A stretch of DNA of 25,547 bases, taken from a virus. The notes under the pieces were generated by a model, which was given only the letters and a program-made list of their open reading frames with translations, was not told the origin of the DNA and did not search any database. Positions within the stretch are counted from its first letter, which is position 1; every line of letters begins with the position of its first letter. Shown in pieces: positions 2,708 through 24,042 of the stretch. Both the position numbers and the translations under genes were made by a program. The stretch spans positions 1-25,547 of IMG/VR virus record IMGVR_UViG_3300042549_007921; one strand, given 5' to 3'.

Positions 2708-3149
2708 AGTTTATATTTTTTGACGTAAAGGCTAATCCCTTTGTATGTAATAGCCTTTCAAGCTGTCTTCCATACACTCCTTCGTTGACGATCTTTTCAA
2801 ATAACTCTTTTATCTCACTGCTTTCTGGTTTTATATCATCACTGTCCTTATTTTGACGTTTGATTAATCGACCTTTAAGCATTTTTAAATATATTCTTTC
2901 CTTTCTTACTCTTTCAAAGCGATTGGATGCCACATTCCAATTATTAGAGCCGATGGTTGCGCTGGTTATTGCTATTTCGATAAACCGCGCTTCACTGATG
3001 TCTAAATTTTTAGCAAAGTCTTTAATCAATGAGGTGGCATAGGCGGAAATACAAGCTTGAACTGGTAAACGTATAACATCGTCATAACTCACTTTATTCC
3101 AGCCAGTCATGATGGCTTTTCTATTGCCCTTTAATGTCTTCTTATTCAT
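2670..3149 (-). CDS. hypothetical protein downstream of helicase
   Basis: A 159-aa basic protein with an acidic C-terminal tail (DDIENDEEKED). Residues about 26-60 (RLPVQACISAYATSLIKDF.., ISEARFIEIAI) are helical and resemble the layout of the next gene, so the two may be distant relatives or partners. No family is recognised. Its ATG overlaps the helicase stop in an ATGA junction (3146-3149), so it is translated by coupling and belongs to the helicase operon. A role in replication or recombination is possible from context only. Confidence 0.6.
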   Translation of the reverse strand: MNKKTLKGNRKAIMTGWNKVSYDDVIRLPVQACISAYATSLIKDFAKNLDISEARFIEIAITSATIGSNNWNVASNRFERVRKERIYLKMLKGRLIKRQNKDSDDIKPESSEIKELFEKIVNEGVYGRQLERLLHTKGLAFTSKNINYDDIENDEEKED

Positions 3150-4600
3150 AGATTAAAATTGAAATCAGATCCAGTTGGCAATATGCCTTGAGCAAATCCA
3201 TTGGTTGATTCTATGATGGCGCGTCTTGTGGCTGAATGTAGTCTGAGGTGCTTATTGAATTCATCAGCAAAATCAATGATGTAGGCAATATTAGCAACTC
3301 TTCCCGTCTTAGCTCTAAGCCCTCTGCCTATGCGTTGACGTAAAGCTACTTCTGCTTTGCCACCACCTGCTAAAACAATGACACCCACAGCGGGAACATC
3401 TACACCCACATCTAAAATAGTTGAACCTATTAGCGCATCTATTTTCCCAACCTTTAACTTGTCGAGTGCAGACTTTCGCTCAATTTGAGAACGCTCACCG
3501 TACATGAACAAACACTTAACCCCGATCTTAGTGAGCATTTCTTGTAAATGTGCACCATGCGCTTTGTGCTGTACGAGGATCATCGACTTCAGACCGTACT
3601 TTGTCGCTCTTTCAACTTCAAAGATAATGGCTTTATTTCTGAACTCATTTTCAACGATACCGATACGATAAGCGGATTGCCATGAAGTAGTTTTAAATAA
3701 AAATCGAGGTTTTTCTGTAGATATGAATTTGAAATAAGGCTTTGCGAGAATCCCTCTTTCGATAAGCGTGTTTTCATCGACATGAATTCCCACTCCACCT
3801 ACAGCCGCATGAAGTCGCATATTGTCTTCGCCATTTGACTTCATAAAGGGTGTAGCGGTAAGAGCTAGTCGGTAATTTGCATTGGTGCAGAGTTTTAGAA
3901 TTTCATAATAGCTATTACCGCTAATTTCGTGCGCTTCTTCAAGAATAACGAACTCAAACTTTTCCAAAAGACGTTTGGTTTGCTCGACTCTAGCGGGGTC
4001 TTTTAACATAGAGGCAAATGTTTGCACCATGCCTACATTGAAGCCTCTTTTGATAGATAGATTGCCGTCACCGATAACACCGACCTTTTCGCCCATACTT
4101 TCAAATGCATCTTTCATTTGATACATTAAAACACCGCGTGTCGTTAAGAACAGGGTCATTCTATTGATGCGTTTATAGGCTAATTTTGCAATTCTCGATT
4201 TCCCACCACCTGTTGCAACATGTGCAACCATTCTGCCTCGATCTTCCAAATGGCGAATGGTTTCAATTTGATAACTGTAGCGTTCCTCTTCAGGGAAGTT
4301 ATCGACTTTGGGATGATAGTCTCCTAACGGCTCAGGTAGTGATTTCTTAATCAGTTGTACGATATGACCTTGCTTTTCAAGCAAGGCTTTGATGTGCAGA
4401 GCAAAGCCAGCAGGGAAGGTCGCATCAGTCATTTTGAAGAACGAAGAGATACCCGACCAGTTGCCTGATTTGAACTTGTCGCTGTACTCAGCACCCTCAA
4501 CCTCGTAAGACAAAGCATCAGAAACAAATAGCTTAACGTCTCTAGTAGGGTTGGGTATTTTTGCCTTTACAGCATTTGATAGTATTTGAATAACTGCCAT
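3146..4600 (-). CDS. superfamily 2 DEAD/DEAH-box helicase (UvsW-like)
   Basis: A 484-aa nucleic-acid helicase. Motif I is ATGGGKS (129-135), motif II is EEAH (221-224), motif III is TAT (248-250), and motif VI is QRIGRGLR (422-429). Motif V-like GVDVPAV lies at about 399-405. The first 100 residues form a separate domain with a NWSGISSFF segment, as in UvsW/RadD-like phage helicases that remodel branched DNA. The catalytic D of motif II is replaced by E, common in this group. It is the first gene of the leftward block and diverges from the ParB-like gene. The start is not preceded by a Shine-Dalgarno sequence. It probably acts in phage DNA replication or recombination. Confidence 0.9.
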   Translation of the reverse strand: MAVIQILSNAVKAKIPNPTRDVKLFVSDALSYEVEGAEYSDKFKSGNWSGISSFFKMTDATFPAGFALHIKALLEKQGHIVQLIKKSLPEPLGDYHPKVDNFPEEERYSYQIETIRHLEDRGRMVAHVATGGGKSRIAKLAYKRINRMTLFLTTRGVLMYQMKDAFESMGEKVGVIGDGNLSIKRGFNVGMVQTFASMLKDPARVEQTKRLLEKFEFVILEEAHEISGNSYYEILKLCTNANYRLALTATPFMKSNGEDNMRLHAAVGGVGIHVDENTLIERGILAKPYFKFISTEKPRFLFKTTSWQSAYRIGIVENEFRNKAIIFEVERATKYGLKSMILVQHKAHGAHLQEMLTKIGVKCLFMYGERSQIERKSALDKLKVGKIDALIGSTILDVGVDVPAVGVIVLAGGGKAEVALRQRIGRGLRAKTGRVANIAYIIDFADEFNKHLRLHSATRRAIIESTNGFAQGILPTGSDFNFNL

Positions 4601-4651
4601 TGATAATAAGTATTTGTTTTAATAGGTATTTGATGATAGCATCATATATAG

Positions 4652-4669
4652 TAAGTATCTAGTGACTTA
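4652..4669 (+). promoter_or_regulatory. 18-bp palindrome copy b in the divergent early promoter region
   Basis: TAAGTATCTAGTGACTTA, located between the divergent helicase and ParB-like genes. A -10-like TATATA (4645-4650) ends one base before it for rightward transcription, without a good -35. A degenerate half-site (TAAGTATTT, 4607-4615) sits before the helicase start. One operator region could therefore control both early directions. Confidence 0.7.
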
Positions 4670-4686
4670 ATTATACGATAAATAAA

Positions 4687-5349
4687 ATGGAACAGACGAA
4701 AAAAATAGACATTACCTATCTTAGCCCAGAATTACTTGTTAGTAACCCCTGGAATTCCAACGTCATGAGCTTGGAAAATGAGACGAAGCTGGCGGAAAGC
4801 CTGAAACGCAATAACATGTACGATGCCATTATCGCAAGGCAGTTGTTCGATGGCAGCTATCAGATATTAGGTGGCGAACATAGAACAAGAGTGGCAAAAA
4901 AGATTGGCATATTGGAGCTGCCTGTTATTGTTCTTAAAAATATAAGTGACAATCAAGCCAAAGAAATTAGTCTAACGCACAATGCACGTTATGGGGCTGA
5001 TGATAGTCTTAAATTATCAGACCTATTAAACTCTTTAGATGATGCCAGTATTCTGACTGACATTATGCCCTACAGCATTATTGAGATAGAAACACTAATG
5101 TCTGCCTCAAAAATAGATTTCGACAGCCTTGTAGGTCTTGATTTTGATGATGATGAGATTGACGAACTAAGTGAGAAAACATTTTTACCAAAGACGCATA
5201 CCATCATGCGTTTTAAAGTATCCATAGAGGATGCTGCCTCAATTGAGGAGATGTTAAAAGAGACAATAAAGATCAATGGCTTTACAGAAAGCGATGCACT
5301 GACCAATGCAGGTGACGCATTAGTACATTGCTTGCTAAGTGAGGCTTGA
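4687..5349 (+). CDS. ParB/Srx-fold nuclease-like protein 1
   Basis: A 220-aa protein with an N-terminal ParB-like domain. The NPWNSN stretch (20-25) and the GGEHRTRVA box (62-70) correspond to the conserved NP-x-N and GxHRxxA motifs of the ParB/sulfiredoxin fold, which binds CTP or ATP and includes phage DNA-binding and nuclease-like members. The C-terminal half is acidic (DFDDDEIDEL) and unassigned. It lacks the partition helix-turn-helix of true ParB, and no ParA gene is present, so plasmid-type partition is unlikely. A second ParB-like gene lies 320 bp downstream, followed by an ABC-ATPase/GNAT fusion. The start lies 17 bp after palindrome b and has no Shine-Dalgarno sequence. Confidence 0.85.
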   Translation: MEQTKKIDITYLSPELLVSNPWNSNVMSLENETKLAESLKRNNMYDAIIARQLFDGSYQILGGEHRTRVAKKIGILELPVIVLKNISDNQAKEISLTHNARYGADDSLKLSDLLNSLDDASILTDIMPYSIIEIETLMSASKIDFDSLVGLDFDDDEIDELSEKTFLPKTHTIMRFKVSIEDAASIEEMLKETIKINGFTESDALTNAGDALVHCLLSEA

Positions 5350-5353
5350 TGAG

Positions 5354-5527
5354 ATGGATAAAAGAAGTTCTATTGATTGCAAGAGCTGTGCTAACCGACG
5401 ACATCAGAAGATTTGCGATATGTGTCGCTATGGAGAACTGTTTGTGGAAAGGGAATCGCTCAGATTTGACGATCAAAGAGAGTCACCCGAATACCCCAAC
5501 GACTACGAGATAGATAATGATCATTAG
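5354..5527 (+). CDS. small zinc-ribbon-like protein
   Basis: A 57-aa protein with two CxxC pairs, C9-x2-C12 and C21-x2-C24, spaced as in a small zinc ribbon, then an acidic, unstructured tail (ESPEYPNDYEIDNDH). The start at 5354 is preferred over a GTG at 5339 because the latter lies inside the ParB-like gene without a ribosome site, whereas GAG and TGATGAG precede 5354. Such knuckles bind nucleic acid or proteins in many phages; the partner here is unknown. It is packed directly after the ParB-like gene. Confidence 0.55.
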   Translation: MDKRSSIDCKSCANRRHQKICDMCRYGELFVERESLRFDDQRESPEYPNDYEIDNDH

Positions 5528-5530
5528 AAG

Positions 5531-5548
5531 TAAGTCATTGGTGACTTA
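5531..5548 (+). promoter_or_regulatory. 18-bp palindrome copy c, putative operator
   Basis: TAAGTCATTGGTGACTTA, a perfect 7-bp dyad (TAAGTCA/TGACTTA) around TTGG. It starts three bases after the zinc-ribbon gene stop. Upstream hexamers are poor (GATAAT at 5513-5518, no -35), so a promoter here is not evident from sequence. Confidence 0.7.
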
Positions 5549-5564
5549 TGGTTATATCCATCAC

Positions 5565-5669
5565 ATGTCGGAGTTCGCAGTTGCAACGCTATGTATATTT
5601 CTATGGCTTTCAATCTTGTTCATGAACTCAATTATTACCACCTTTAATAAAGTAACTTGTAGGAAGTAG
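5565..5669 (+). CDS. possible 34-aa single-span membrane peptide
   Basis: An open frame from ATG 5565 to TAG 5669 encodes MSEFAVATLCIFLWLSILF at its start: one hydrophobic span (about residues 4-27) then a short basic tail (NKVTCRK). It ends three bases before the next ParB-like start, the packing expected of a real small gene, and fills most of an otherwise empty 145-bp gap. It has no Shine-Dalgarno sequence. Function unknown. Confidence 0.35.
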   Translation: MSEFAVATLCIFLWLSILFMNSIITTFNKVTCRK

Positions 5670-5672
5670 ACA

Positions 5673-6308
5673 ATGACGGACAAGAGTTCAGAAATTCTTA
5701 AAATTGAATCATGGGATATTGAAAAGATTATTCCCTATGAGAATAATGCCAAGATTCACACAGTAGAAAAGGTTGCTAAATTAGCCAAAACCATCAAAGA
5801 GTTTGGCTTTAATGTACCTATTCTTATTGATGAAGCTGGCATCATATTGGCAGGTCATGGTAGACGTTTGGCGGCACTCAAGCTTAAGTTCAAAAAGATC
5901 CCTGTCATCGTTAAAAGAAATCTTACCGAAGTGCAGAAGGGTGTCTATCGAATTGCTGATAATAAAGTATCTAGCAATGACTATGACGACACATTATTGG
6001 CAAATGAAATTAGAGAGTTAATGATTGAATCAGAACGTGAGTTATTGCTTTTGGATGCAGAATTATTTGGTATGGAGCCTATTGAGTTAGGCTCTATCTT
6101 GGAAAAGTTCTCCACCGATGACATTGGCATGATGTTACCTGATATGGATGATCTCAGTGACATAGAAAAGCCTAAAGCCGTTGTCAAAGATGTCGAATAT
6201 GAAAAATCATATGTGGTATCTATTAAATGTTCAGGCGAAGCGGAACAACTTGAGCTGTGGAAGCAGCTAAAGGCTGATGGTCGTGACTGTAGCATTATGA
6301 CGATGTAA
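5673..6308 (+). CDS. ParB-like N-terminal domain protein 2
   Basis: A 211-aa protein with a clear ParB N-terminal domain: IIPYENNAKIH (19-29), a helix with LAKTIKEFGF, VPILID (48-53) and the AGHGRRLAALKL box (60-71). Proteins of this type occur widely in phages next to DNA methyltransferases or other modification enzymes. The C-terminal part is acidic and unassigned. A Shine-Dalgarno AGGAAG sits before the ATG. It ends two bases before the ABC-ATPase/GNAT gene, so the two are probably co-translated and work together. No ParA partner is present. Confidence 0.9.
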   Translation: MTDKSSEILKIESWDIEKIIPYENNAKIHTVEKVAKLAKTIKEFGFNVPILIDEAGIILAGHGRRLAALKLKFKKIPVIVKRNLTEVQKGVYRIADNKVSSNDYDDTLLANEIRELMIESERELLLLDAELFGMEPIELGSILEKFSTDDIGMMLPDMDDLSDIEKPKAVVKDVEYEKSYVVSIKCSGEAEQLELWKQLKADGRDCSIMTM

Positions 6309-6310
6309 TT

Positions 6311-7411
6311 ATGCCAAAATTTACTCATAAGTTAGAGATAGACTATAAACAATCCTTTCGATCAGCCAGTATTGAGGGTATGTTTGACGTACCCATTGAA
6401 AAGAAGCTATCAAAGTCATGGGAAGTTGATATGCCCATCGAGAATGAGGAGTGGTCTATCGGTTTAATCGTGGGACCCTCTGGCTCTGGTAAAACCACTA
6501 TCGGTAAAGTGGCTTTTCCAGATGCTAAGTTATTTGACGGTTCACGTCATGAAAATTGGAATTCAAATTGTTTTGTAGATGACTTTGATGAAAGTCTTCA
6601 GGTGCAGGACATTGTAGAGGCTTTATCAAAAGTGGGATTCAGTTCTCCACCTAATTGGGTACTGCCATTTTCTGTACTTAGCAATGGTCAGAAATTTAGA
6701 ACAGAAATCGCTCGTTTAATTTTGGAATCTGCACCTGGCGAAACCATTATGATTGATGAGTTTACATCGGTAGTGGATCGAAAGATTGCCAAAGTATGTT
6801 CATCTGCCGTACAAAAGATGGTTCGCACATCAAATAGAAAACTGGTTGCCATCTCTTGTCATTACGACATAGCCGAGTGGTTAGAGCCTGATTGGATTTA
6901 TCATGTCGATACCGGTGAATTTAAAATCACTAGGGGGTTACTTAAGCGACCATCTATCGAACTCGTCATACGCAGGGTACATCACTCTGCATGGGGAATT
7001 TTCAAAGACCATCATTATCTAAATGCGTCAGTTAATAAGTCTGCACATTGTTTTGTGGCATTTTTGGATAACGAACCTGTCGCATTTTGCGCTGCCATTC
7101 CTTTTCCACACCCTACTTTGAAAAATATGTGGCGAGCGCATCGAACGGTTTGTTTACCTGATTATCAGGGCGTAGGGATTGGTAACGCTTTTAGCGAAGC
7201 CATTGCTCAGCACTTTATCGATCAAGGTAAGCGCTATTCAAGTGTAACCAGTCATCCATCGATGATAGCTCATCGCATACGTTCAAAAATGTGGGTTATG
7301 ACTCGAAAACCTGGACGTGTTCCTGTTAATGGCAAAACAGGTATGTTTAAAAGTTCAGCCAATAGAATTACCGCCTCATTTGAGTACATCGGAGAAAAGA
7401 GTGAGTCCTAG
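6311..7411 (+). CDS. ABC-ATPase fused to a GNAT acyltransferase domain (possibly Mom-related)
   Basis: A 366-aa two-domain protein. The N-terminal ABC ATPase has Walker A GPSGSGKT (55-62), a signature-like LSNGQ (123-127), Walker B TIMIDE (145-150) and the switch His H184 in ISCHYD. No membrane segment is present, so it is not a transporter. The C-terminal domain (about 215-335) is GNAT-like, with acyl-CoA loop QGVGIG (286-291) after a RTVCLPDY strand. An HHY motif (234-236) and SHPSMIAHR (314-322) are further marked stretches. Mu Mom, which modifies adenine in phage DNA, is also a GNAT-fold protein, so a DNA-modification role is a reasonable inference beside two ParB-like genes. A tRNA or protein acyltransferase is the alternative. 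Confidence 0.85.
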   Translation: MPKFTHKLEIDYKQSFRSASIEGMFDVPIEKKLSKSWEVDMPIENEEWSIGLIVGPSGSGKTTIGKVAFPDAKLFDGSRHENWNSNCFVDDFDESLQVQDIVEALSKVGFSSPPNWVLPFSVLSNGQKFRTEIARLILESAPGETIMIDEFTSVVDRKIAKVCSSAVQKMVRTSNRKLVAISCHYDIAEWLEPDWIYHVDTGEFKITRGLLKRPSIELVIRRVHHSAWGIFKDHHYLNASVNKSAHCFVAFLDNEPVAFCAAIPFPHPTLKNMWRAHRTVCLPDYQGVGIGNAFSEAIAQHFIDQGKRYSSVTSHPSMIAHRIRSKMWVMTRKPGRVPVNGKTGMFKSSANRITASFEYIGEKSES

Positions 7412-18416: not shown

Positions 18417-18448
18417 TAAACGATTGATAAAGACTGGAGCTTGTGACT

Positions 18449-19270
18449 ATGAAGACTGAAATACCTGTTGTCGAATTAAGAGAGTTTAAAATATACAAAT
18501 TAACCTCCCCATCTGGAAAGTCTTACGTAGGTCAGACTTGCAATCTTCGCAACAGATTTTATGGTCACAGGTCTTCATCAAATAGATGTGTTGCTATAGC
18601 AAATTCAATTAAAAAATATGGATTTGATTCATTTTTAAAAGAGGTTATTGCCGATAACCTAACGATTGATGAAGCAAATAACTTAGAGTCTTTTTTCATT
18701 AACGCCTTTAACACAATGGCTCCAAATGGATACAATCTTAGAGAAGGCGGTGCAAATGGAAGAATGTCTCAAGAGTCAAAAGAAAAGATAAGAAAGGGCT
18801 TAATTAATCGCCCAGTTAGTGCCGAGACTAGAGAAAAGATCGGAAATGCAAATAGAGGTTTAGTAAGATCGGCAGATGTTGTTATGCGACATAGAGATGC
18901 TATTACTGGAAGGAAACACTCTCAGGAGCATAAAGATAAGATTTCCGCAAGCGCAATGGGTCATTGCGTTTCAAAACTAACTAGGGAAAAGATTTCAGCA
19001 AGTAATACTGGATATATTACATCAGAACATACAAAGAAAAGACTATCTGATATCAATGCTGGTGAAAAACACCCAAGAGCCAAAAGATGGGTGTTAATAG
19101 ATCCATTCGGAAATGAGCATCATGCCCTCAGTTTGACGGAAATTTGTAAAGAAAATGGATTAAGTGCATCGCTAATTGCGAGAGCTGCAAAAACATCCTA
19201 TAAGCACAAAGGGTGGAAATCATTTATTTTGGACGATTTTATTGAAACAATTAATGGAGGTGTATCTTGA
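18449..19270 (+). CDS. GIY-YIG homing endonuclease (NUMOD-containing)
   Basis: A 273-aa endonuclease. The GIY-YIG domain shows KIY (14-16), YVGQT (26-30), Arg-rich LRNRFYGHR (33-41) and the catalytic Glu E80 in NLESFFI. Residues about 100-200 contain NUMOD3-type repeats (SQESKEKIRKGL, SAETREKIGNANRG, SQEHKDKISASAMG, TREKISASNTG). The end (LTEICKENGLSASLIARAA then HKGWK) is a NUMOD1-like helix-turn-helix. It lies between the tail chaperone and tape measure genes, which are normally adjacent, so it is an inserted free-standing homing gene. GGAG sits nine bases before the ATG at 18449; a GTG at 18443 is too close to it. It carries the ribosome site of the tape measure gene. Confidence 0.93.
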   Translation: MKTEIPVVELREFKIYKLTSPSGKSYVGQTCNLRNRFYGHRSSSNRCVAIANSIKKYGFDSFLKEVIADNLTIDEANNLESFFINAFNTMAPNGYNLREGGANGRMSQESKEKIRKGLINRPVSAETREKIGNANRGLVRSADVVMRHRDAITGRKHSQEHKDKISASAMGHCVSKLTREKISASNTGYITSEHTKKRLSDINAGEKHPRAKRWVLIDPFGNEHHALSLTEICKENGLSASLIARAAKTSYKHKGWKSFILDDFIETINGGVS

Positions 19271-22200
19271 GTATCGGAAGACTTGTTGTTGAGCTTGAGT
19301 TAAATGATGGTCAATATACCAGTAGAATGACTCAAGCTGGTAGAACAGCTCAAACTCTATCTGGACAACTCAATCAAGTCAACCGAAGTCTGGGAGGCAT
19401 TCAGTCAGGTGTGACAGGGGCAATACCTCATCTTAGAGATATTGCAGTTGTTACCTCTGGACTACACTCTGTTTTTTCAATGGCGCAAGACACCATTGGA
19501 AAGTTTGCAGGTTCACTTATCAAAGCCAATGCTGAAGTTGAGCGAACCTCAATTCTTCTTCAAGGGCTATCAAAATCAGTCGATTCACAAGGCAAACTCA
19601 AAGATGCTGCCAAAGATATGGAGTTCTTGTTTGAGACTGCTAAACAAGCTCCATTTGCCTTAAAAGAGCTATCCAATTCATTTGTCAAGATGAAAGTCGT
19701 TGGTATGACTGATGTTGAGACAAAACTTAAAAATATCACTAATGCCATAGCCAGTTTCGGCGGATCTGATGAGTCGCTTCATAGAACTACTGTTGCCTTA
19801 CAACAGATGGCTTCTAAGGGCGTAATCTCTATGGAAGAGTTACGTCAGCAATTAGGTGAGTCTGTTCCGTCAGCGATGCAAAACATGGCAGATGGTATGG
19901 GCATGACCATGAGTTCAATGGTTAAAGCAATCTCTGAAGGGAAGGTGAGGGCATTACCTGCCATAGACGGCATGATGCAAGAAATGGAATTCTCAATGGC
20001 AGGGTCTTCAGCTCGCATGATGCAAACATGGAATGGCATGTTCTCGCAACTTGAAACCAACTGGATGTTGTTTCAAAAGAAAGTGGGTGATGGTGGGTCA
20101 TTTGAAGCGATCAAGACGGAACTTGGACGATTAAATGACTTTTTACAATCTGATTCTGCACTGAAGTGGGCGCAAACTTTTGGCGATGCGTTAAAAACAG
20201 GGATAGATGGACTTCACTCAATGGGCGAAGCGTGGAGCAAAAACAGTGAGATGATTGGCGGTGCGCTAAAGATGTTACTGGAATTTTGGGTAATATCTAA
20301 AGCGTTAAAAGGTCTTGGTAATATTGTCGGAGCAACGGCAGAAACCAGAGCATTAGCATCCAGTAGACTAAGACCACCCACACTTAAGCCAGGAACGCCT
20401 GCGACACCTGCAAATTGGGACCCTAAAAATGGTGCTGTGACAATGGGCACAGCGGAAGGTGCTGCAACGATGATTGCGGGAAGCGCAACCGCGATGACAG
20501 CTCTAAATGCCGCACTTGCCTTTATGCCTGGTTATTTAAAACTAATACCACTTGCTATATTGGGATGTGTTGAGGGTTATAAATACTTTAGCAATACGGC
20601 AGGAAAGGCGCTTGATGAGATATCTGCAAAGCAGGAGGAGTTAAATAAGAAAACGCTAGAGAGTGCTCGTATTGAGGGGGATGTTGCGCTAAAAACAATA
20701 GAGGACATTGACAAGGTTAAAGCCTCTATTGTTGAAATGGAGAGTGCAAAGATCAATGCAAAAAGAGATGTTGCAAATTCTCAAAACGTACTTTTTGCAC
20801 CGCAAAATGCAAGTATGATTGACACAGGGCTGACAGCCATTGCCAATAAATTCAATGGAACTGATGATTTAGAAAAACATAAAGCCACCGTTTTACGCAT
20901 GGAGACTGACATTTCATTGGCGAAAAAAGCTGTCTGGGAAGGCAGTGTTGAGTGGTTTGACAGAACAGAAAAGAGACAAATTGGAATAGCGAAAAATTCA
21001 TCAGAAACAGAGATGTCTATTGCCGCAACTACTTACAAGAATGAACTTAAGCTTATTCAGGAAGCATTAGATTTAGAGATAAAAGCAGGTCTCGATGGCG
21101 TTACGGCAAATAAGAATAAACATGCCGCCATTGTCCAGCTTCATAAGGATACATTAGCAAGCAATACCATCATGCTGGATAAGATGAAGGTAGATGCTGA
21201 AGCTGTGGTGTCAGGACTTAGAAGTAAAGATGTTGAAATAGCTATTTATATTGACAGCACAAAAGCATTAAAAGAAGCGGAAGATTTTCTCAATTTATTG
21301 AGACTGGCTGTTGCAAAAACAAAGCTTGCAATAGCCGCTACTAATGATGGAGGTAAGTCATCAGGACTTGCCAGCACATTAATTGGACAGCAAGCAGAAA
21401 TTGACAAAGCGGTTGCAAATATCTCTACCCTAAAAGGAACTATTGAGGATATAAAAGGAACTGGCGCAATTACGGAAGGTGATTTGATCGATCTTTCCAA
21501 AGCCACAGGCACGCTTACTTTTGTGTCAGAAGGAATGAAAAAGATTGTCGAATATCAAAAGGAATTAGCTCAAAATAAATTAAAAGGCGATGATGCGTTA
21601 ATGACTGGCGACACGGCTAAGTCACTAGAGGCTGGGATTAAACGCTTTGAGCAAGCAAAGGCGCAACTCGCAAAAGCGGTAAATGATAATCTGTCGCTAA
21701 ATAATCCAAAACTTGCAACAGCGATGGCAAGACAAGAGGACGGCTCTGGCGCCATAACTGACGCAATGAGAGATGCCGCTAACGCAAGAATAAACGCGGG
21801 AGGGGATTTCAAAGATAAAGGCAACCTTGTTCTGTCCACTTCAATGTCGCAATTGCAAACATCAGCAGTTGGATTGCGAGATCCAGAACAAGTTAAAAAG
21901 TTGACTCTATTGATTGAGGCAAATGTTGATGCGCTCAATCTTGAAACAAAAGCACAAGAGGGTTTGGCAACAGCAACAGCAGGAACCGCTGCTGCACATG
22001 AAAAGCTTAATGAGTTAGCTAAAGGTGGCACTTTTGAGCGTGAGACATTGGCAAAGCTTGAAAGACAATACGGTTTAGAGAAAGGTGTATTGGACGCATT
22101 GTGGCAAGTTGAGTCATCACGCGGCAAAAACATGTCAACAAAAGACTCATCAGCACAAGGTCATTTTGCAATAACAAATGGCACCGCTGACACAATGGGT

Positions 22201-24042
22201 CTTAACAGAGACGATAGAGGTGATTTTGAAAAATCATCACAAGCGGCTGCTAAGTATTTAGGCATGTTGAAGGAAAAATATAATGGCAGTATGGATGCTG
22301 CGCTTGCCGCTTATAAAATAGGTCAAGGTGGCTTTGAAAAGAGAGGGTTTGCGGGAGTAGGTCAAGGAACAAATGCTGATGCTGGGTATTTGGGCAAGAT
22401 TCGTTCTGTTATGAATGATGTGCCTGATAACAAGGTCATTATTGAAAAGATGGCTGAGATTGAAAATTTAAGAAAAAACAATCAAAATCACGCCACTCAA
22501 GATAATGAGTTAGCAGTATTAAGGAAAAAGCAAAGCCTTGAAGATCAATATAAAGAAGAGCTGAAGTATTATGCAGGAACTGATCAGCTTAGGGCGGCAC
22601 AGGCTGCTCATGAGCAAACTTACGCAAAATATCTTAATACGCTACACACAGCTGAGCGGAAAGAGCGTAGAGACGCTGATGCGTTAGCCTCAAGAGATCC
22701 AGTTGGCATCTACAATAATCAAATTAAAGACTACCAAGAGACAAATTTAAAAGCCCTTGAAAACCAGCATGAAGCGTTTAAAAAAGATATTGAAGATGCG
22801 CTAATGCTTGGCTCAATTAACAAGGAAATGGCAGATGACAAGCTAAAAGCCATTGACGATCAGATTGCCGCTGAGAATGAGAGAGCAACGCTTGAACATA
22901 AGCATCTGATGGATGCAAAGCAGGATCAGATTGCTTTCAACAGAATAAGAGATACCAATAACGCAATCAAGACGAATACATTAGGAAGGGCTACAGGTGT
23001 AACAACCACTAAAAAGGCTTACATGTTGGCTGAAGAAGCTAACGCTCAAGCTGTTGACAAGATCAAATCAACCGATGTTGGGGAAAATTCAGGGAATCTA
23101 CAAGGTCATCTTGATTCTCAAAAGGCGTTATACGCAGATCAATTAAAGCAGATTGAGTATGACCATAGAAACGCCTTTGAAATAATGACTCAAGAGACTG
23201 TTGATTTTAATATGGTAGCAGGTCAAGCGGCAGCAGACTTTACCAATGGCATGATAGATGGTCTTGCTAATATGATAGTGACTGGTAAGGGGAGCTTTAG
23301 AGACTTTGCAATATCCATCATACAGTCAATTGAAATGATGATCGTTAAGATGTTGCTACTTAAGGCAATTCAAGCAACTATTGGTATGTTTGGTGGTGGT
23401 GGAAATATGGGAGGGGAGGGTATCTACTCATCTACCACTGGTTTAGGAACCGCTGGACCTAATTATGGGCTGAAGTTCGGAGGGGTTGTGGGTGGCGTAC
23501 ATGCTTTTGCTAGTGGCGGTTCAATGCTAAGCAATGCAACCAAAATGACAAAGAGACAGATGTTAGCAGGTGGTGTGAAGAGCAAACCACATCTTGCTTT
23601 ATTTGCAGAAGCTGATGTACCTGAAGCCTTTATACCGATGCATGATCGTAAAAGCATTCCAATATCTGTCATGCGTGATGCAGCAGGAAACTTAAGCGCC
23701 AAGGCATTATTGCCTGGTGGCAAATCAATTCCAGCTACCATTCAGCAATCTAATTTTAGCCAGTTTGCAGTGGGTGGAATGGCTGGAAATATATCAAGTG
23801 ACAAAGTAAATGGAATGTCATCAGGTGTTAATGGAAACTCTGCAAATTCCCCACTAGCTAATGGCGCTGTTTCGATCACTATCAATGTTGATAATAAGGG
23901 TGATGGGTCTTCCAAAAAGGATGGGGCTGGAAAAGATGGCAAGCAAGATGAGATGTGGTCAAAAATGGCAGACAATATTAAGGGCATTGTTATTAAAACC
24001 ATTGGTGAGCAAAAAAGACCAGGGGGCGCATTATGGAGCTAG
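19267..24042 (+). CDS. tail tape measure protein with lytic transglycosylase domain
   Basis: A 1591-aa protein, the longest in the window. The N-terminal part (about 60-260; NAEVERTSILLQGLSKSV, PFALKELSNSFVKMK) is the typical tape-measure N-terminal domain. Hydrophobic stretches follow (about 335-440, MTALNAALAFMPGYLKLIPL). Long coiled regions come next, then an SLT-type lytic transglycosylase domain (about 935-1040) with catalytic E949 in QVESSRG. The C-terminus (about 1330-1380) has lambda gpH-like FRDFAISIIQSIEMMIVKMLL and Gly-rich sequence. At about 0.15 nm per residue the tail would be near 240 nm or less. The start is a TTG sharing bases with the endonuclease stop, preceded by a strong GGAGG. 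The enzyme domain would open peptidoglycan during DNA entry. Confidence 0.95.
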   Translation: MSIGRLVVELELNDGQYTSRMTQAGRTAQTLSGQLNQVNRSLGGIQSGVTGAIPHLRDIAVVTSGLHSVFSMAQDTIGKFAGSLIKANAEVERTSILLQGLSKSVDSQGKLKDAAKDMEFLFETAKQAPFALKELSNSFVKMKVVGMTDVETKLKNITNAIASFGGSDESLHRTTVALQQMASKGVISMEELRQQLGESVPSAMQNMADGMGMTMSSMVKAISEGKVRALPAIDGMMQEMEFSMAGSSARMMQTWNGMFSQLETNWMLFQKKVGDGGSFEAIKTELGRLNDFLQSDSALKWAQTFGDALKTGIDGLHSMGEAWSKNSEMIGGALKMLLEFWVISKALKGLGNIVGATAETRALASSRLRPPTLKPGTPATPANWDPKNGAVTMGTAEGAATMIAGSATAMTALNAALAFMPGYLKLIPLAILGCVEGYKYFSNTAGKALDEISAKQEELNKKTLESARIEGDVALKTIEDIDKVKASIVEMESAKINAKRDVANSQNVLFAPQNASMIDTGLTAIANKFNGTDDLEKHKATVLRMETDISLAKKAVWEGSVEWFDRTEKRQIGIAKNSSETEMSIAATTYKNELKLIQEALDLEIKAGLDGVTANKNKHAAIVQLHKDTLASNTIMLDKMKVDAEAVVSGLRSKDVEIAIYIDSTKALKEAEDFLNLLRLAVAKTKLAIAATNDGGKSSGLASTLIGQQAEIDKAVANISTLKGTIEDIKGTGAITEGDLIDLSKATGTLTFVSEGMKKIVEYQKELAQNKLKGDDALMTGDTAKSLEAGIKRFEQAKAQLAKAVNDNLSLNNPKLATAMARQEDGSGAITDAMRDAANARINAGGDFKDKGNLVLSTSMSQLQTSAVGLRDPEQVKKLTLLIEANVDALNLETKAQEGLATATAGTAAAHEKLNELAKGGTFERETLAKLERQYGLEKGVLDALWQVESSRGKNMSTKDSSAQGHFAITNGTADTMGLNRDDRGDFEKSSQAAAKYLGMLKEKYNGSMDAALAAYKIGQGGFEKRGFAGVGQGTNADAGYLGKIRSVMNDVPDNKVIIEKMAEIENLRKNNQNHATQDNELAVLRKKQSLEDQYKEELKYYAGTDQLRAAQAAHEQTYAKYLNTLHTAERKERRDADALASRDPVGIYNNQIKDYQETNLKALENQHEAFKKDIEDALMLGSINKEMADDKLKAIDDQIAAENERATLEHKHLMDAKQDQIAFNRIRDTNNAIKTNTLGRATGVTTTKKAYMLAEEANAQAVDKIKSTDVGENSGNLQGHLDSQKALYADQLKQIEYDHRNAFEIMTQETVDFNMVAGQAAADFTNGMIDGLANMIVTGKGSFRDFAISIIQSIEMMIVKMLLLKAIQATIGMFGGGGNMGGEGIYSSTTGLGTAGPNYGLKFGGVVGGVHAFASGGSMLSNATKMTKRQMLAGGVKSKPHLALFAEADVPEAFIPMHDRKSIPISVMRDAAGNLSAKALLPGGKSIPATIQQSNFSQFAVGGMAGNISSDKVNGMSSGVNGNSANSPLANGAVSITINVDNKGDGSSKKDGAGKDGKQDEMWSKMADNIKGIVIKTIGEQKRPGGALWS

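Follow-up and report, generated by a model that had tools for sequence, protein, structure and literature searches.

Positions 4687-7411 of the viral record IMGVR_UViG_3300042549_007921 encode a module of four rightward genes, in the order ParB1, a CxxC–CxxC peptide, ParB2 and a fusion of an ABC ATPase to a GNAT domain, hereafter ABC-GNAT. The source record is 25.5 kb long, and all of its 25,547 nucleotides constitute the stretch analyzed here, termed the window. We propose that ParB2 and ABC-GNAT together form a predicted ATP-dependent acyl-coenzyme A (CoA):DNA-base acyltransferase that would protect the phage DNA, a reading from sequence and gene context to which we assign a probability of roughly 70%. 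If correct, it would describe a widespread route of DNA protection based on ATP-powered acyl-CoA chemistry, in a large family whose members are often annotated as transporters.

Contextual connections to DNA modification

The best functional evidence for this proposal is that ABC-GNAT takes the places of known DNA modifiers, as observed in three separate contexts. The family of ParB2 takes in 284 phage records, many of which are annotated as DNA methyltransferases, including fusion proteins. These phage ParB–methyltransferase proteins (phrog_498 and phrog_620) tie the same family of ParB domains to a DNA-modifying enzyme, often within one protein, but they use S-adenosylmethionine as the donor, whereas the module described here has ABC-GNAT and, as predicted, acyl-CoA. 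In the Microbacterium phage Bush, a ParB of the ParB2 family (E-value 3e-37) overlaps the gene for a GNAT protein resembling Mom of phage Mu (PDB: 8bv8), the N6-carbamoylmethyl-adenine modifier, which like ABC-GNAT belongs to the GNAT superfamily. Finally, in Porphyromonas phages the same slot holds ABC-GNAT and a formyltransferase in one phage and Mom in another, with flanks that are 90% and 84% identical. A reading made earlier from the sequence alone had suggested a DNA-modifying or DNA-protecting role for the module; the methyltransferase fusions, the Bush ParB–Mom pair, the Porphyromonas swap and the acyl-donor neighbors described below all lend support to such a role. The main text of the MetaGPA paper contained no relevant passage.

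Conservation of the ParB–ABC-GNAT unit

Matches to the ABC-GNAT family number at least 595 stretches in viral contigs and 451 in contigs from genomes of bacteria and archaea. Neighborhoods were sampled as the nearest 80 of each collection, with the window's side of the family over-represented as a result, and adjacency was counted on contigs with room beside ABC-GNAT. In these samples ABC-GNAT is immediately preceded by a co-oriented ParB gene in 78 of 80 viral contigs and in 68 of 76 bacterial genome contigs; this co-occurrence, which the sequence-only reading had named as a check on its proposal, reveals a conserved unit. Neither ParB nor ABC-GNAT was found in any of 80 Mom loci taken as a control, and the adjacency far exceeds background. 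An identical 21-nucleotide overlap of the ParB and ABC-GNAT genes recurs in 81 loci, and one natural fusion places ParB, ABC and GNAT domains in a single open reading frame (L119, 4257-6092) of a Gemmataceae metagenome-assembled genome.

ParB2 (5673..6308, + strand, 211 residues) is the conserved partner in the window, ending 2 bases before the start of ABC-GNAT. It matches phrog_620 (6e-42) and, under the curated cut-off, Pfam ParB_N (5e-5). Its ParB_N-like domain is followed by a C-terminal tail, F.V.VEC.dE.eQ..L...G.kCR.L, that is common to the ParBs adjoining ABC-GNAT (154 aligned). This tail is missing from the Mom-partner ParB of phage Bush, suggesting that it may be a docking part for ABC-GNAT. 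ParB1 (4687..5349, + strand, 220 residues), which also has the ParB/Srx fold (Pfam ParB_N 3.6e-11; phrog_723 3.6e-55), is an extra paralogue, with homologues in the same position in loci L001-L003. Between the two ParB genes lies a 57-residue CxxC–CxxC peptide (5354..5527, + strand), a putative zinc ribbon that has no Pfam or PHROG match and is kept in this position in L001, L002, L003, L028 and L029. ParB1 together with this peptide was met only in the close clade of the window. The peptide and Com of phage Mu are both small CxxC–CxxC proteins, but they are otherwise unlike by eye and we do not claim an equivalence.

Neither ParB appears to belong to a ParABS system: none of the window proteins scanned against Pfam and PHROG proved to be a ParA, and with the full-length ParB model TIGR00180, which has a cut-off of 58 bits, both ParBs score only ~33. 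The sequence-only description of the module as one rightward block of two ParB/Srx genes without ParA, a CxxC–CxxC peptide and ABC-GNAT is upheld, the ParB and ABC-GNAT assignments by the Pfam and PHROG matches. Under the proposed reading, accompanying DNA-modifying enzymes would be a role common to ParB/Srx proteins without ParA.

There are nucleases and NTPases (nucleoside triphosphatases) among the ParB/Srx proteins, and toxins among the GNATs (PMC5512222, PMC7641849), from which the module might be construed as a toxin or superinfection-exclusion system in which a ParB-type nuclease and the ATPase–acetyltransferase act against other DNA or tRNA. We consider this improbable, given that ABC-GNAT occurs in phages of many host groups, both temperate and large lytic-type ones, that it swaps with the protective enzyme Mom, and that the donor-synthesis genes discussed below suit bulk modification more than a toxin.

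Domain architecture and conserved motifs of ABC-GNAT

ABC-GNAT (6311..7411, + strand) has 366 residues, with the ABC domain at ~1-210 and the GNAT domain at ~212-366. These match Pfam ABC_tran (9e-6) and Acetyltransf_1 (3e-6) in that order, while the full length matches phrog_11143 (1.8e-103), a PHROG of unknown function. The AlphaFold2 model has a mean predicted local distance difference test score of 92.7. Conservation was scored over 133 diverse relatives of less than 80% identity. In the ABC half, the Walker A region (residues 51-63, GLIVGPSGSGKTT; 6461..6499, + strand) has G51, G55, S57, G58, G60 and K61 invariant, and the stretch from the ABC signature LSNG (123-126) to the Walker B/D-loop DEFTSVVDR (149-157; the whole at 6677..6781, + strand) has L123, S124, G126, D149, E150, S153, D156 and R157 invariant. 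E150 corresponds to the Walker B catalytic glutamate and H184 to the H-loop histidine; the ABC motifs as a whole are invariant or nearly so. In the GNAT half, a F-x-x-H-H-Y-L motif containing HHY (residues 231-237; 7001..7021, + strand) is strongly conserved (F231 and Y236 100%, H235 98%, L237 97%), as is motif A, the acyl-CoA pyrophosphate loop R-T-V-C-L-P-D-Y-Q-G-V-G-I-G (278-291; 7142..7183, + strand; R278, P283 and G287 100%, Q286 98%, G289 97%), whose CoA loop takes the form QGxG. Outside the QGxG residues the most conserved GNAT positions are F231, H235-Y236, R278, P283, P316, W328 and F357. Given this conservation of catalytic motifs, both halves of the single chain are most likely active, the first as an ABC ATPase and the second as a GNAT that binds acyl-CoA.

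Foldseek searches return matches to the nucleotide-binding domain fold, and in P335, Javan141 and others the gene is annotated as the ATPase of an ABC transporter or as part of an iron-siderophore uptake system. However, neither the scanned window proteins nor the annotated neighborhoods viewed include a permease, the GNAT domain is always and ParB usually present, and the scores lie far under the curated cut-off of every transporter model. We therefore reject the transporter annotation, in agreement with the sequence-only reading, and regard uptake as a hardly credible function. The module is systematically misannotated in Lactococcus, Oenococcus and Streptococcus phages: in L007, L011 and L012 the ABC and GNAT genes are split, with the ABC half labeled as an ABC or iron-siderophore transporter, and two of these loci, L011 and L012, also have the ParB partner labeled as a DNA modification methylase.

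Candidate acyl-donor genes

Clustering of the neighbors brought out a gene resembling CoA-transferase III at six loci; it was first noticed next to an aspartate decarboxylase (PanD) gene in the Rhodococcus/Gordonia phage Jace. An independent scan with this CoA-transferase III subfamily returned 27 viral loci (16 clusters at 90% identity, 14 at 70%), in every one of which ABC-GNAT is directly adjoining. In 22 of the 27 a PanD gene stands between the two, with short overlaps. These PanD proteins retain the GS self-cleavage site and the invariant residues that we take to be the catalytic ones. As PanD produces β-alanine, from which the CoA transferase could form β-alanyl-CoA for transfer by the GNAT, the pair probably supplies β-alanyl-CoA as the acyl donor. 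A separate scan with a formyltransferase subfamily (PF00551) found ABC-GNAT adjoining in 80 of 80 loci, and eight of the nine phage records with this formyltransferase are ABC-GNAT records. The distribution of the PanD–CoA-transferase pair corresponds to four changes on the ABC-GNAT tree. On the whole, the partners track ABC-GNAT subfamilies, as would be expected of substrate specialization.

These linkages allow a broader reading, which we hold only tentatively and at somewhat below even odds, namely that ABC-GNAT systems are a modular platform for DNA hypermodification. In it, ParB-recruited enzymes would install varied acyl or aminoacyl groups with the aid of dedicated donor genes, PanD and CoA-transferase III providing β-alanyl-CoA and an enzyme resembling glycinamide ribonucleotide transformylase capping a glycyl or β-alanyl amine, to give N-β-alanyl or N-formylaminoacyl adenine or cytosine. 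We know of no genome so far with either kind of base. If the module does acylate DNA, the PanD–CoA-transferase operons name a concrete donor, β-alanyl-CoA, and the product would be predictable and could be sought in the isolated phage Jace.

PanZ/PanM is a GNAT that activates PanD. A comparable role was considered as the general function of ABC-GNAT and rejected, as most loci are without PanD; it might be an additional function in the PanD subset. In L200-L205 and L211 (e.g. L200, 3035-4138) another ABC-GNAT gene comes after that for the CoA-transferase, giving two ABC-GNAT enzymes per operon. In Gordonia phage BiggityBass (L018, 1823-2473) a gene annotated as a tRNA-methyltransferase is a formyltransferase (PF00551, 7e-10), a likely misannotation.

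A model for DNA-base acylation

The above observations suggest a mechanism in which ParB2 would bind or slide on phage DNA and recruit ABC-GNAT, through contacts that, as the existence of the ParB–ABC-GNAT fusion indicates, could be close enough for a single polypeptide. The ATP-bound ABC domains might then dimerize round the DNA and expose a base, in the manner of other non-transport ABC ATPases. The GNAT domain, with its intact CoA loop, would take the acyl group off CoA and attach it to an adenine or cytosine base at an exocyclic amine. In relatives with the donor genes the group transferred would probably be β-alanyl, and where the formyltransferase-like enzyme is encoded it may formylate the aminoacyl group afterwards. 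DNA modified in this way would be expected to evade host restriction. The window would represent a plain version of the system, drawing on a host acyl-CoA such as acetyl-CoA, with an extra ParB and the zinc-ribbon peptide added. Phages Pmp13, SL25 and LE3 also have the plain version, while phage Komp_PAO1_1 has the one with the formyltransferase.

Points against the model and comparison with other GNATs

Several observations weigh against this model. ParB adjoins ABC-GNAT in just 10 of 20 annotated phages that are more widely spread than the samples above; it is therefore not essential in all lineages. The formyltransferase corresponds to one clade on the ABC-GNAT tree, and its 80 of 80 adjacencies are hence not independent events; it also has I or G at what we take to be the position of the PurN catalytic asparagine. 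A search of the window for donor-tailoring genes found none. ASCH (PUA-like) genes occur near ABC-GNAT in 28 of 185 loci, as opposed to 0 of 80 Mom loci, which counts in favor of the model, but these and the terminase neighbors are compatible with other roles too.

The structural relationship to Mom postulated in the sequence-only reading also failed to emerge. The hhalign comparison of the GNAT and Mom profiles gave an E-value of 0.074 and a probability below 1%, a single-sequence comparison was likewise not significant, Mom (8bv8) was not among the top 50 Foldseek matches of the GNAT half, and a Mom profile had no hit in the window by hmmsearch. Unlike ABC-GNAT, Mom has neither an ABC ATPase nor a QGxG CoA loop; of the Mom-family invariants HYS, ELxR, SFAD and YxAxN, ABC-GNAT has only the H-Y, and R278 could be paired with Mom R111 by eye only. 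As for the suggested correspondence of HHY to the active-site region of Mom, HHY occupies the topological position of the invariant H58-Y59 of Mom, between alpha-1 and beta-2, and the two are paired along the hhalign path; this shared position of the H-Y pair could nevertheless be convergence. The resemblance otherwise lies in the genomic slot or ParB partnership that the two have in common in some phages.

In Foldseek searches the GNAT half retrieves generic GNATs at a template modeling (TM) score of ~0.65, with RimI at rank 10 among many of similar score. This result goes largely against the fold argument of the sequence-only reading, which had named a best match to ordinary RimI-type acetyltransferases as evidence against itself, and leaves the functional argument unaffected. 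The closeness of the GNAT half to generic protein and small-molecule GNATs, including RimI, would also suit an enzyme that acetylates a packaging-machinery or host protein, as with phiKMV Rac and RimI, with ParB marking DNA for packaging, the module being a packaging or take-over factor. It agrees with the position of the module just upstream of the terminase genes in many loci, one neighbor cluster of 75 loci taking in the annotated terminases of L006, L012 and L016. Nevertheless, ABC-GNAT lies away from the terminase in jumbo phages, Straboviridae phages and Nonlabens, and a packaging role leaves unexplained the PanD–CoA-transferase and formyltransferase partners, the swap with Mom and the ParB family common to DNA methyltransferases, which makes it an unlikely alternative to DNA-base acylation.

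A profile search of the PDB with the GNAT half found weak generic GNATs only, among them RNA cytidine acetyltransferase (E-value 0.09), and Foldseek placed TmcA (2zpa) at rank 7 with a 417-column alignment, the latter match counting in favor of the model. By analogy TmcA appears to be the best two-domain PDB counterpart of ABC-GNAT: like it, TmcA/NAT10, the tRNA/rRNA N4-acetylcytidine synthase, joins a P-loop NTPase and a GNAT in one chain and has a nucleobase target. The NTPase of TmcA/NAT10 is, however, of the helicase type rather than an ABC ATPase, its substrate is RNA, and the TM score of 2zpa is 0.28, a further point against the model in that the domain arrangement differs. As the nearest analogue is of the TmcA/NAT10 type, and PUA/ASCH domains frequently bind RNA (PMC7641849), the module could conceivably modify tRNA or rRNA as TmcA does, shielding phage translation from host defenses that target tRNA. 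The partner is, however, a DNA-associated ParB domain, the cassette exchanges with the DNA modifier Mom, and no RNA-binding domain was seen in the ABC-GNAT protein; we accordingly see little prospect for an RNA substrate. Overall, ABC-GNAT is Mom-like by context and TmcA-like by architecture, and belongs to neither family.

Relationship to earlier predictions

COG2401 comprises archaeal ABC ATPases fused to an acetyltransferase. Systems that couple a GNAT to an ABC ATPase have been predicted to carry out an uncharacterized acyl modification of a DNA base (Iyer and Aravind 2013, as restated in Viruses 2021, PMC7824862), with Tenacibaculum phage pT24 as the exemplar. The ABC-GNAT of the window is homologous to that of pT24 (tblastn E-value 1e-56, 37% identity over 87%; hit H26) and has the ABC and GNAT domains in this order in one polypeptide, placing it in the predicted ABC-ATPase–GNAT family. 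The module is thus already a predicted class, of which the window is a further member, with the same two-domain protein and the same predicted function. The pT24 gene is annotated as two pieces and is without a ParB neighbor, whereas the window has an adjoining ParB2, a second ParB and the zinc-ribbon peptide. Acyl-donor genes go unmentioned in the portion of PMC7824862 available to us that describes the GNAT–ABC system, and the literature searched, which excluded Iyer 2013, makes no mention of links of ABC-GNAT to ParB, formyltransferase or PanD. The donor operons, the swap with the Mom cassette, the ParB–Mom pair and the counts of ParB co-occurrence were worked out here.

Genomic setting of the module

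The window is from a temperate tailed phage, as it encodes an integrase as well as terminase, portal, scaffold and tail genes, the latter four found from 8 kb onward in PHROG and Pfam scans. At its left end a tRNA-Thr gene (20-94) is followed by a tyrosine integrase gene (277-1419), and this arrangement (20-1419, + strand) makes it likely that the phage attachment site lies there. Divergent from the module lies a gene for a DEAD/ResIII helicase with weak N-terminal similarity to UvsW (3146-4600, - strand; Pfam and PHROG), and promoters facing each way may lie in the interval between them (4601-4686). Further to the right, a gene for a GIY-YIG homing endonuclease with NUMOD3 motifs (18443-19270, + strand; Pfam GIY-YIG 3e-8, NUMOD3 2e-13) is inserted immediately 5' of the gene for the tape-measure protein (19267-24042, + strand; 1591 residues), which contains an SLT lytic transglycosylase domain at residues 929-1022.

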